From: Opitutales bacterium
GTDB taxonomy: Bacteria > Verrucomicrobiota > Verrucomicrobiia > Opitutales > UBA2995
Assembly: GCA_022824405.1 (NCBI GenBank)
Contig: JAJDZZ010000010.1
Coordinates: forward strand, 1-48,351
Reading direction: 5' to 3'
Length of the DNA: 48,351 nt
The notes below the pieces were generated by a model. That model was not told where the DNA came from and did no database searches. It was given only the letters and a program-made list of their open reading frames with translations. A program made the position numbers and the translations under genes. Position 1 is the first letter of the stretch, and each line of letters opens with the position of its first letter. This document shows, one piece after another, positions 11,481 to 15,181 of the stretch.

Positions 11481-13028
11481 CTAAAATCCACGCATTTCGG
11501 GCAGGGCGTCTAAAAATCGGGCGTTTGTCCTTTTGAGTTCCGCTTTCAGGAGGCTATGCTGCTTCTCAACGATGTGGCGGTACTGTGGGAGCAGGGCCAA
11601 GTTGTTCAGTTCATGCGGGTCGTTGTCGATGTGGTATAACTCGGGGATTTCATCTTCGACCCAGGATTGAATGAATTTGTAGCGATCCTTGATGACAAAC
11701 CCATACCAGGGAATGCCATTGGGAACCTGGTCGATGGTGGGAATGGCGCCTGTATCCGGACGATAAGACCGTGCCGTAAAGGTCAGGAACACCGGATGGT
11801 CCCAACGTCTTTGCGGTCGTTTAAAGAGGGGGGTGAGATCGCGTCCTTGAAACTCCCAGGGGGCCTCCATTCCGGCGAATTTGAAAAAGGTTGGAACGAG
11901 GTCGATTCCACCGATGGGCGAGGTGCAGACTTGGCCCGAAGCGACGGTTCCGGGCATGGAAACGATGAAGGGAACGCGGATGTTTGCGGCATATGGGGCC
12001 AGCTTTTGCAGGAAACCGTGTTGTCCCCAGGCGTGACCCTGGTCGGATGTGTAAACCACCAGGGTATTTTCCAACTGCCCGGTCGATTTGAGGAGGCGAA
12101 TTAAACGACCCACATTCTCGTCGATACTTATGACCGATTGGTGATAACGCCGCGTTCCATTGTAGAGGGTGTCTCCGGACTGCTGGTCAACTCCATAATG
12201 TCCAGGATAGCGGGGAACGCCGTTTTCATCCGGTTTGAAATCAGCCCGTTCCGAAGCGTATGCCGGTTTTCCCGGCCTGGGCGGATAGAGGTCTGCCGGT
12301 TGGGGAATTTCCACGCCTTCATAATCGTCCAGATGCCGGTCTGCCGGTATCCAGGGTCCATGAACCGCCGTATAGCAAAGCCAGAGATACCACGGTTGAT
12401 CCGGATTGCGGTGGTCTCCCTTGATGAACTCTATGGCCCGGTCCGTATAATTGTCCGTGGCATAGGCATCGACAGGGCCTATTTTCCGGCCATTTTCCAG
12501 GATGGTCTGGTGGACGTAGTATTCGCGATAATTGCCTGCTCTGGGGACAGGCCGTATCCAGGCGTACTGGTAATCCCAGTCTCTTCCATAACCGGTGTCA
12601 TTGGCGGTGTGCCACTTGCCGATTTGTCCGGTGGAGTATCCATTCTTGCGAAAGTACTTTGGCCAGAACTCAAGTTCCTCGGGATCGTATTCGGCGCCCG
12701 GATAGGGTCCCGACATCCTCAGACTGGGGACATCGTGCTGTTGCAGACCCGTCAGCATGGTGGCCCGAGCCGGCATGCACCAGGTGCCCATATAGGCGTG
12801 TTCAAAGCGGATTCCCGAATCCGCCAGACGATCTATATTCGGGGTATGCGACCACTCGTAGGATTCCGGATAGCTGCTGACGGTTCGCGAGCTTTGGTCG
12901 TCGGTAAATATTAAGAGGATGTTGGGTCGTACATCGGCGCTGCCGTGCGTCGCGAGGTTGAGGCACAAGGCACAAAGGCACAAAGGGGTCAGGGATCGGA
13001 TTGCCGAAAAAAGGTATGGTTTTATCAT
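11481..13028 (-). CDS. Type I sulfatase
   Basis: 515 residues. The mature part begins RPNILLIFTDDQSS and carries the activation motif CMPARATMLTG with Cys84; the loop after it (LQQHDVPSLR) and GKWHTANDTGYGRDWDY are typical. The distal metal site is YTSDQGHAWGQHGF. Length and the C-terminal ELYHIDNDPHELNNLA are normal for intact glycan sulfatases. The signal peptide (LTPLCLCALCLNLATHGSA) is partly encoded by 8-bp repeats (12961-12987). The stop codon (11481-11483) is preceded on the plus strand by repeat modules. No partner gene lies on the same strand upstream; the region behind its start is decayed sequence. Confidence 0.92.
   Translation of the reverse strand: MIKPYLFSAIRSLTPLCLCALCLNLATHGSADVRPNILLIFTDDQSSRTVSSYPESYEWSHTPNIDRLADSGIRFEHAYMGTWCMPARATMLTGLQQHDVPSLRMSGPYPGAEYDPEELEFWPKYFRKNGYSTGQIGKWHTANDTGYGRDWDYQYAWIRPVPRAGNYREYYVHQTILENGRKIGPVDAYATDNYTDRAIEFIKGDHRNPDQPWYLWLCYTAVHGPWIPADRHLDDYEGVEIPQPADLYPPRPGKPAYASERADFKPDENGVPRYPGHYGVDQQSGDTLYNGTRRYHQSVISIDENVGRLIRLLKSTGQLENTLVVYTSDQGHAWGQHGFLQKLAPYAANIRVPFIVSMPGTVASGQVCTSPIGGIDLVPTFFKFAGMEAPWEFQGRDLTPLFKRPQRRWDHPVFLTFTARSYRPDTGAIPTIDQVPNGIPWYGFVIKDRYKFIQSWVEDEIPELYHIDNDPHELNNLALLPQYRHIVEKQHSLLKAELKRTNARFLDALPEMRGF
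12961..12987. repeat. Short octamer array inside a signal-peptide coding region
   Basis: About three copies of the octamer AAAGGCAC (one copy 7 nt long) lie in the 5' end of the minus-strand sulfatase. Read on the coding strand they give PLCLCALC in the hydrophobic core of the signal peptide. The same octamer forms arrays at 30865-30938, 38784-38897 and 48227-48351. Confidence 0.8.
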
Positions 13029-13300
13029 GAGGAATTGAATAGAGATTCTGAGTTTCTGAGGTGCCGAGGCACTTGGATGCGAGAATTAGGAATTGACCAG
13101 GGAAAGCGCAAAATGCACAAAACCCAGGAATTATAAGGATGAGCACGGAGGGAGAAAGTTTAATTAGAAATCAGGAAGGAAAAAGTACGAATTACAAACC
13201 AGGATCCAGGAATTAGGGCGAGAGATCAGGATCACGAGTAGATGGGGAGCATCCAAGTTTCTGAGGTACCGCGGCCCTGAGAGGAAGGAGGAGGAATAGA
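13029..13300. other. Purine-rich degenerate intergenic stretch
   Basis: No gene is supported. The plus strand is purine-rich with many GGAATTAGG/GGAATTGACC-like phrases, and it contains two versions of a GTTTCTGAGGTRCCG module (near 13052 and 13256). ORFs across this part have no recognisable protein features. Confidence 0.5.
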
Positions 13301-13400
13301 ATTGAACCCAAAAAAACACAGGTTGGCGCCGCTATAGTCGGATGCGGAAACGTTTCCACAAGCTATGCCGAGAATATGTTTAAATATCTGGTATACTGCT
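13301..13400 (+). pseudogene. 5' fragment of a Gfo/Idh/MocA-type oxidoreductase
   Basis: The frame running through 13304-13378 reads KKTQVGAAIVGCGNVSTSYA then ENM. The beta-strand followed by G-x-G-x-x-S is the NAD(P)-binding start of Gfo/Idh/MocA dehydrogenases. No ATG precedes it (ATT occupies the expected position at 13301), and after about 13400 the open frame continues to 13570 without recognisable family sequence. I infer a decayed gene start. A stretch at about 13470-13555 in another frame (CAVAVRRFLKQVGILEN) also looks protein-like but was not identified. Confidence 0.55.
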
Positions 13401-13601
13401 CCTGGGGCCAGGGAGGAGGAATGGGTTTGACGAGGAGCACGGTGTCACCGGTCGGTTGGCATCACGCCCGGAGCGCAGGAGTGTGCGGTGGCCGTGCGGA
13501 GGTTTTTGAAGCAGGTGGGAATCCTGGAGAATCAATTCTTCCCTTGAGTTCCTCCTCCCCCACTTCGTAGCTACGGATGCCCCATGACCATGGAAATAAG
13601 T

Positions 13602-13664
13602 TTATTCCAGGCCCAATTTACCCGGATTCATGATCCCGGTTGGATCAAGGGCATCCTTGCTGCG
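13602..13664 (-). pseudogene. C-terminal fragment of an FAD-linked oxidase (GlcD/DLD type)
   Basis: On the minus strand, the last codons before a TAA at 13602-13604 read KDALDPTGIMNPGKLGLE. This is the C-terminal signature of VAO-family FAD-linked oxidases such as glycolate oxidase GlcD and D-lactate dehydrogenase. Upstream the frame runs straight into hairpin-repeat DNA (from about 13652), so only about 20 codons remain. Either a decayed gene or an excision scar. Confidence 0.6.
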
Positions 13665-13674
13665 CCTAACGTGG

Positions 13675-13746
13675 GTAGGGCGACGGCATCCCTGCCGCGC
13701 CGCCATGAGCAAGGGCGCGGCAGAGCAAGGATGCTCTTGCCCTACC
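13675..13746. repeat. Inverted pair of GGTAGGGC/TCCY hairpin elements
   Basis: Two facing copies of one element. The plus-strand copy (13674-13701) is GGTAGGGC-G-ACGGCA-TCCC-TGCCGC-GCC; the minus-strand copy (13746-13713) is GGTAGGGC-A-AGAGCA-TCCT-TGCTCT-GCC. Flanks and the TCCY loop are constant, while stem sequences differ but still pair. A partial related sequence (GGGCATCCTTGCTGCGCC) sits at 13649-13666. Confidence 0.8.
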
Positions 13747-14049
13747 ATGGCTAATACAATCGCTGCATTGTGGGCGGTAGCTTGCCGCCGATCAAAAGTT
13801 CCAAACTAATCGCAGGAAGAGTTTCTATAACAGTAGTTGGTATCGGTTACGCATCGTTGCCTTTCAGTATCCATAATCAATCATCGTTGACAGCGGTATC
13901 GCCGCGGGGTGTCTTGAACCGTGCCTCACTGCGCTTTTCATAGTAGAATAGCAAATTTTAATCCGATTGCAGCAGGCCTGAAATCCAAGTGGTCGAAGGC
14001 ACGTATATGTCATTAATCAACGCAACCACTGACAACGAAGGAGTGTATT
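13747..14049. other. Intergenic region upstream of the SDR gene
   Basis: About 300 bp without a supported gene. A GGGCGGTAGCTTGCCGCC imperfect palindrome lies near 13769-13786. Short minus-strand open stretches around 13885-13950 look coding-like but match nothing I recognise. The last 15 nt hold GAAGGAG about 8 nt before the GTG start at 14050, a good ribosome binding site that supports this start. Confidence 0.5.
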
Positions 14050-14832
14050 GTGAATCTATTTTCGCTAGCGGGAAAAGTCGCCCTCGTCACCGGCGCCAGT
14101 CGCGGCATTGGTCGCGGAGTGGCCGCGGGCATGGCTGAGGCCGGAGCCACAGTTATTTGCGCCGCCCGCACCCGCAGCCAACTCGACGAAGCCGTCACTG
14201 CCATTGAGGCCTCCGGCGGCAAAGCCCGCGCGGTCGAGTTGGACATGGCCGACTTGGAGGGCATGGATGCGGCCTTGGAGCAATGCGGTCCCATAGACAT
14301 CTTGTTCAATAATGCCGGCATGAACATCCGCCAGCCCATCTTGGAGGTTTCGGAGGAAAACTACGACCAGATCATGGCCGTCAACCTCAAGGGCCTGTAC
14401 TTCCTCAGCCAGAAGGTCGGCCGCCAGATGATCGAGCGCGGCCAAGGCGGCAAGATCATCAACATCGGCTCGCTGACCACGGGCTACGCCTTTGCCAATG
14501 TGTCGGTCTACACCGCGACCAAGGGGGCCGTCGGCCAACTCACCAAGGGCCAAGCCATTGAGTTCGGGTCGCACAACATCCAGGTCAACGCCATCTGCCC
14601 GGGCTTTATAATCACCTCGCTCACCGAGAAGCTGTGGGCCGACGAAACCATGCGTGCCTGGGGCGAGGGGCGGGTTGTGCTCAACCGCTTGGGGACGCCC
14701 GAAGACTTGGTCGGCACAGCCGTCTTTCTCGCCGCGCCTGCCTCGGATTACCTCACCGGGCAGTGCATTTACGTCGATGGCGGCTTCACGGCTGGCGACG
14801 AGTGGCCCTTGCCGCCGGTGGCTGGGAGCTAG
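14050..14832 (+). CDS. SDR family NAD(P)-dependent oxidoreductase
   Basis: 260 residues from GTG at 14050, chosen because a GAAGGAG Shine-Dalgarno sequence sits just upstream. Classical SDR features: cofactor motif TGASRGIGRG (residues 14-23), NNAG near 87-90, catalytic Ser in NIGSLTTG, and catalytic Y-x-x-x-K in YTATKGAVG. The C-terminus ends YLTGQCIYVDGGFTAG. Close relatives by pattern are gluconate 5-dehydrogenase and KduD-like 2-deoxy-D-gluconate 3-dehydrogenase, so oxidation/reduction of a sugar acid or alcohol is plausible but unproven. Cytoplasmic. By eye it is clearly more GC-rich, with GCC/GGC-ending codons, than the genes on both sides, and it is bracketed by hairpin-repeat pairs, which suggests separate origin. 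Confidence 0.9.
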   Translation: MNLFSLAGKVALVTGASRGIGRGVAAGMAEAGATVICAARTRSQLDEAVTAIEASGGKARAVELDMADLEGMDAALEQCGPIDILFNNAGMNIRQPILEVSEENYDQIMAVNLKGLYFLSQKVGRQMIERGQGGKIINIGSLTTGYAFANVSVYTATKGAVGQLTKGQAIEFGSHNIQVNAICPGFIITSLTEKLWADETMRAWGEGRVVLNRLGTPEDLVGTAVFLAAPASDYLTGQCIYVDGGFTAGDEWPLPPVAGS

Positions 14833-14880
14833 CGTGGTGAATCTTAAATAATCCATCACAAAAAACCCGGATATAGAAGA

Positions 14881-14958
14881 GGTTACGGCATCGCGGGGAC
14901 GCGATTGCCCTACCATTTCAAAACCTAAGCGGTAGGGCGGCGGCATCCTTGCCGCGCC
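14881..14958. repeat. Second pair of GGTAGGGC/TCCY hairpin elements
   Basis: Two back-to-back copies of the element seen at 13675-13746. The minus-strand copy is GGTAGGGC-A-ATCGCG-TCCC-CGCGAT-GCC; the plus-strand copy (14931-14958) is GGTAGGGC-G-GCGGCA-TCCT-TGCCGC-GCC. The plus copy matches the one at 13675-13701 with 2 differences in 27. Together the pairs bracket the SDR gene. Confidence 0.8.
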
Positions 14959-14967
14959 TGGTGGAAA

Positions 14968-15099
14968 AAAGGGGTCAAACGTAGAAAATAGAATTTCCCT
15001 TATTATCCGATGCCTGAACGGCCAACAACCAGAGCCATTCCAATCAATTCACGATGACTATAGTGAAGGGAAATTCTATTTTCTACGTTTGACCCCTTT
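14968..15099. mobile_element. 34-bp perfect inverted repeat with 64-bp centre (MITE/REP-like)
   Basis: 14968-15001 and 15066-15099 are perfect reverse complements over 34 bp, starting AAAGGGGTCAAACGTAGAAA. The centre (64 bp) has no ORF. Ends of the GGGGTCA/TGACCCC type are familiar from REP elements mobilised by RAYT (TnpA-REP) transposases; that link is inference, and no such transposase gene is in the window. Confidence 0.8.
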
Positions 15100-15181
15100 G
15101 GGTAACCCTGGAAGAAGTTCACAGTTTGTGTGAACGAATTAACGATACACCACACTAGTAGTTTTTCTATTGAAGGCTATT

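Follow-up and report, generated by a model that had tools for sequence, protein, structure and literature searches.

GTAG-tagged REP hairpins around an SDR gene in an uncultured family of Verrucomicrobiota and a RAYT transposase flanked by the same hairpins

What are the four short hairpins that surround the gene for an SDR-family oxidoreductase (14050..14832, plus strand; Pfam PF13561/PF00106) in the window, a 48,351-nucleotide stretch of DNA from an Opitutales bacterium, and by what means did they come to lie there? The original prediction held that all four fit a single formula, GGTAGGGC-R-N6-TCCY-N6-GCC, with a nearly free stem and a fixed loop and flanks, and that they form facing or back-to-back pairs around the gene. 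Each of the four matches with zero mismatches; when up to two mismatches are allowed, the shuffled window yields 0.14 matches on average and in no case four. The left pair comprises an element of stem type A with GTAG at its 5′ end and the loop TCCC (13674..13701, plus strand; fold z -3.56) and its head-head partner of type B (13719..13746, minus strand; z -3.17); the right pair comprises a type C element (14887..14914, minus strand; z -3.55) and, across a 16-nt spacer, its tail-tail partner of type A (14931..14958, plus strand; z -2.62). Thus, the GTAG ends face outward in the left pair and inward in the right pair. The places, the stem sequences and the pairing around the gene are as predicted, apart from the start, which is 13674 rather than 13675. 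A probable decayed type A copy without GTAG (13639..13666, plus strand) precedes the intact type A element by 35 bp as a 71% identical direct repeat; contig C34 carries an intact 37-bp tandem array of similar spacing, with three type A copies in the plus orientation separated by 9 nt.

When folded as DNA, the 28-nt elements leave the 5′ GTAG foot unpaired and form nine pairs with one bulged base. In the minimum-energy fold of type A (GGGCGACGGCA...), G9 is paired with C25 and A10 is the bulged base. The single stem mismatch originally counted across the four elements is therefore an effect of register and vanishes when the type A bulge is moved one base later. Four features, namely GTAG at the 5′ end, a mainly extragenic location, the organization in inverted dimers (BIMEs) and an intact RAYT gene with these hairpins on both sides, make it very likely that the four elements are GTAG-tagged REPs arranged in inverted dimers of the BIME/REPIN type and non-autonomous partners of the RAYT encoded on contig C76 of the same genome.

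In the host genome (G000; 3.39 Mb in 92 contigs), the strict formula retrieves 90 copies (41 forward and 49 reverse) compared with none for a reversed control pattern, and the covariance-model search that had been proposed yields 111 when the model is based on 13 variants (about 110 with variants). The 104 copies of known sequence fall into four stem types, A (43), B (35), C (22) and D (4). The copies are mainly extragenic: 8 of 68 lie inside open reading frames of at least 100 codons, against 83% of random positions at the same loci. Several contigs start or stop no more than about 100 bases away from a copy, as would follow from repeats that interrupt the assembly. The restriction of the bulged base to a purine proved too strict, given that it is T in 14 copies of this genome. 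At three loci (L015, L007 and L211), a second, unrelated family of GC-rich palindromes (e.g., CCAAAGCCCAGTGTCGC...GCGCACGCTGGGTAGGAA) stands beside several REP copies.

The copies within the genome go back by descent to about four stem types, and their pair counts are therefore not independent. For the same reason, the four window copies are weaker evidence of covariation than originally supposed, and the window genome alone was dropped as the main proof. The main comparison therefore involves sister genomes, from which all matches to an unbiased pattern with seven free bases on each side of TCC were collected, yielding 84 distinct sequences from five genomes. With the bulge fixed at position 9, all six stem pairs form in 59 of the 84 (shuffled mean 12.2, maximum 23), and with the bulge at position 9 or 10, in 66 of the 84 (shuffled mean 12.6, maximum 23), where the stem shuffles do not preserve the relatedness among the sequences. 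Pair 12-23 occurs in all four Watson-Crick types (A-T, T-A, C-G and G-C), pair 11-24 as C-G, G-C and T-A, and pair 15-20 as G-C and A-T; there are 21 different fully paired stems, and the bulged base is A in 37, C in 22, T in 13 and G in 12 sequences. With so many pair types and stems, descent alone is unlikely to be the cause. The compensatory change in the stem is real, that is, the structure is conserved, and the genome-wide copies are paired far above chance rather than unpaired as often as paired. The notion of a nearly free stem is borne out for pairs 10-25, 11-24, 12-23 and 15-20, which vary freely across species, and has to be given up for the central pairs 13-22 and 14-21, which are nearly fixed as G-C or C-G. 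The family offers many naturally compensated stems suited to a binding assay.

RAYTs are REP-associated tyrosine transposases, single-stranded DNA transposases of the HUH type. Seven Y1-transposase domains are encoded in the genome that contains the window, and only one RAYT is flanked by the REPs of this family, so that stem types C and D have no RAYT of their own. This is the intact 133-aa protein on contig C76 (8665-9063), which scores 92.1 bits against the RAYT equivalog NF047646 (cut-off 80 bits), retains the HUH motif and the catalytic tyrosine (MPDHLHLLV, AEYIRQNPVRKGL, YIRQNPVRKGL), and has a single match in the PDB, the E. coli TnpA-REP structure 4er8 (E 4e-11). Its gene is preceded by REPs in the order B-A-B and followed by A-B, which bears out the suggestion of a REP-type substrate with a linked RAYT. 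The closest relative, 81% identical in the best segment, belongs to a member of the same genus, Opitutia bacterium 287ce (G001, contig C165), and likewise has A and B hairpins on its flanks, and in that assembly a stop interrupts its frame; a 58% identical relative in G006 (contig C779) is flanked by dimers of the sister type.

In a set of 32 related RAYT loci, drawn from Verrucomicrobiota and neighboring groups, GTAG hairpins are 13 times denser near the RAYT (4.06 per kb within 350 bp vs 0.31 per kb beyond 1 kb) and are present at 24 loci. Each RAYT has its own stems and loop, and most of the hairpins are perfect palindromes; at four loci (L053, L055, L061 and L063), the TCCY loop is shared and the bulge is absent. 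Two further genomes, G212 and G237, also encode a RAYT flanked by TCCY-loop hairpins.

Domains of the RAYT type (Y1_Tnp/NF047646) also occur in frame and free of stop codons inside complete-looking host genes of several genomes; we know of no description of such an arrangement. In the genome that contains the window, the host is a gene for the HsdR subunit of a type I restriction system (L254, 1475-5233; contig C47). The hosts in other genomes are alanyl-tRNA synthetase (alaS; two genomes), the PriA helicase (priA) and a DinG-like helicase (L250, 1009-5202, G144 contig C141; L251, 457-3855, G394 contig C66; L252, 818-4135, G237 contig C13; L253, 176-3295, G144 contig C42), with two RAYT domains in one of the alanyl-tRNA synthetase genes. 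At loci L031 and L242, similar repeated peptides, which may be translated repeats, stand on both sides of the RAYT domain.

The covariance model has matches in all eight sampled genomes of the family; the 45 genomes sampled from the rest of the order have none. In a sample of the class, 21 of 384 genomes match a looser formula, with 243 copies in G416, 273 in G144 and smaller numbers in G212, G237 and G394; the elements of these five genomes have other stems, and the bulge lies in part 6 bp above the foot instead of 3 bp. The family makes up a natural series for probing what RAYTs read, with the bulge present or absent and at two heights under the same TCCY loop. The complete chromosome of the sister genome G002 contains 45 copies by pattern, and no REP of the family lies near the RAYT loci retrieved from it; the cognate RAYT may have been lost or may be another one, and these REPs are consistent with an orphan or older population, with which their varied stems agree. 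The situation in G005 and G007 is similar, these assemblies being fragmented.

The possibility that the hairpins are of an undescribed kind does not survive comparison with known repeats, because the GTAG tag defines a known REP superfamily; the tag likewise rules out the CGTC superfamily. The GTAG superfamily comprises 24 published families, of which GTAG-17, -19 and -20 come from Opitutus terrae, a member of the same phylum (Di Nocera et al., 2013; PMC3733652). The elements described here are 28-nt imperfect palindromes with an unpaired terminal GTAG, within the 20-40 nt that characterize the superfamily, and they share with it the high copy number, extragenic position, head-head and tail-tail dimers with spacers of 7-60 nt, several stem subtypes per genome, and a RAYT gene flanked by repeats (REPtron), here represented in G000, G001 and G006. 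The O. terrae families could be the same as these REPs, or their sisters; the formula GGTAGGGC-N-stem-TCCY-stem-GCC is absent from the text of that paper, the consensuses of which stand in a figure, and a literal search of the searchable literature for the element sequences returned nothing relevant and did not find the exact consensus. A REP family supported by covariation, along with its RAYT, can be assigned to a family of uncultured Verrucomicrobiota for which hardly any descriptions of such systems exist.

The E. coli REPs (y, z1 and z2) and BIMEs similarly combine a GTAG foot, unpaired stem bases the identity of which matters little (PMC8266576), and inverted dimers that mix REP types, and the RAYT is related to TnpA-REP (group 2). 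Unlike the E. coli elements, which have a two-base AA-GC mismatch, the hairpins analyzed here have just one bulged base, located 3 or 4 bp up from the GTAG end, as well as a TCCY tetraloop and other stems. Inverted REP dimers with short conserved spacers are also typical of REPINs (Bertels and Rainey, 2011; PMC3116915), from which the present dimers differ in that they join two stem types and in that the tail-tail class is the larger one.

Among the 104 copies, there are 22 tail-tail, 14 head-head and 4 head-tail dimers. Every one of the 36 inverted dimers combines two stem types (A-C, A-B or B-D), compared with 24 expected if these units were paired at random, the effective number of independent dimers being below 36 because many are copies of one another; most of the head-head A-C dimers have a conserved spacer of 21-22 nt and shared flanks. 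In the sister genomes, mixed stems are found in 11 of 11 inverted pairs in G002, 11 of 11 in G007 and all 11 of those listed for G004, and no identical-stem inverted dimer was detected among the 36 or among about 69 with three sister genomes added. Identical-stem head-head dimers are present in G416, which belongs to another, more distant family, and the heterodimer rule was therefore rejected as a general law and is to be read as a rule of the lineage. A preference for heterodimers has been reported for E. coli and other REPs (PMC3733652).

The single-strand recognition, cleavage and mobility of these REPs are inferred by analogy with work on E. coli (PMC8266576), Stenotrophomonas and Marinomonas. 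In the most likely mechanism, the hairpin would fold when the strand becomes single, for instance in the lagging-strand template; the RAYT would read three features, the GTAG foot left unpaired, the single-base bulge and the TCCY loop, the stem bases being largely free, and would nick and transfer at nearby dinucleotides, so that dimers would be copied to new intergenic sites. The E. coli TnpA-REP requires both GTAG and an unpaired bulge, the bases in the bulge being immaterial (PMC8266576). A bolder scheme, which we consider rather unlikely, is that the RAYT needs a single unpaired base, whichever of the four it is, and that the copying unit in this lineage is obligately a heterodimer of two stems; the need for an unpaired base would be derived from the bulge-free perfect palindromes flanking sister RAYTs. 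If true, the stem would be a free "address," and GTAG, the bulge and the loop would be the sole read-out.

Could the hairpins instead be explained without a RAYT? The shortness of the elements would make chance or neutral similarity of four GC-rich hairpins without a common origin thinkable, and this is refuted by the four exact matches where 0.14 are expected and by the 90 genomic copies against none for the reversed control. The hairpins might also be cis-acting RNA structures, either 3′-end stabilizers or a small-RNA family, kept for a function in the transcript with transposition being irrelevant. The compensatory changes that preserve the hairpin and the extragenic location would suit such a role, and 3′-end stabilization is known for other REPs (PMC3733652); however, no match to an Rfam family at the gathering score exists in the window, none of the four sites shows an intrinsic-terminator pattern, the left pair lies upstream, not downstream, of the SDR gene, and the REPs occur on either side of the RAYT and frequently in inverted pairs. 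A role in RNA is therefore very improbable.

Carriage by another element, namely a MITE bounded by CTAG and terminal inverted repeats and moved by a DDE-type transposase, is improbable as an account of the whole family and finds support at this locus. The right-hand pair is located within a 329-bp CTAG-bounded insert (14829..15157; first bases CTAGCGTGGTG, last bases CACCACACTAG) with imperfect terminal inverted repeats (CTAGCGTGGTGAATCTTAA... / ...TACACCACACTAG), which is absent at the orthologous site of G001. There, on contig C382, the end of the SDR gene is joined directly to the sequence that follows position 15157 (...GGGAGC AAGTAGTTTTT...), the flanks being 97% and 95% identical; the junction fits an empty site and an insertion with duplication of CTAG (or TA), loss of the insert in G001 being a possible alternative. 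Three other genomic copies have the same left end and the C-A pair at equal spacing. The right-hand pair appears to have arrived inside, or carried by, this insert, and its spread may be due to the carrier rather than to the RAYT acting directly. Nevertheless, the genome contains only six such left ends, about four of them with REPs, against approximately 110 REP copies; the shared block ends just past the REP, and a right end was detected in no more than two copies, that of the window and one that lacks these REPs; and such ends are absent from the RAYT-flanking and A-B dimers shown. The assignment to REPs that would be mobilized in partnership with the C76 RAYT is the preferred reading for the family. 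For the left pair, comparison with the congener yields no clean empty site because the 580-bp upstream region is replaced there by unrelated sequence; a second such comparison, at the L171 locus, gives no information because a whole 7-kb stretch is missing from the congener.

Inside the window insert is a 132-bp element (14968..15099) with perfect 34-bp inverted repeats (AAAGGGGTCAAACGTAGAAAATAGAATTTCCCTT) that contains GGGGTCAAACGTAG. Its relatives are found at both ends of a 339-codon Y1-transposase frame (L032, 817-949 and 1909-2040), and, judging from this arrangement, it resembles a TIR-associated tyrosine transposase element in non-autonomous form; the same arrangement is described for TIR-associated tyrosine transposases in PMC3733652. 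A second complete insert, on contig C49, lacks these REPs and contains the GC-rich palindrome family mentioned above. A 95% conserved repeat of about 280 bp, which starts with GTAACTACTCAG and ends with CTGAGTAGTTA(C), holds a type B REP and a degenerate D-like partner at seven loci (L028, L189, L171, L192, L184, L197 and L177) and is a further TIR-bounded element in which a REP pair is carried. The window also contains short degenerate repeats (AGTTTCTGAGGTRCCG, AGGAGGAAT...) at 13025-13110 and 13240-13430, upstream of its left-hand REPs, and the segment 13027-13068 matches many places in the congener G001.
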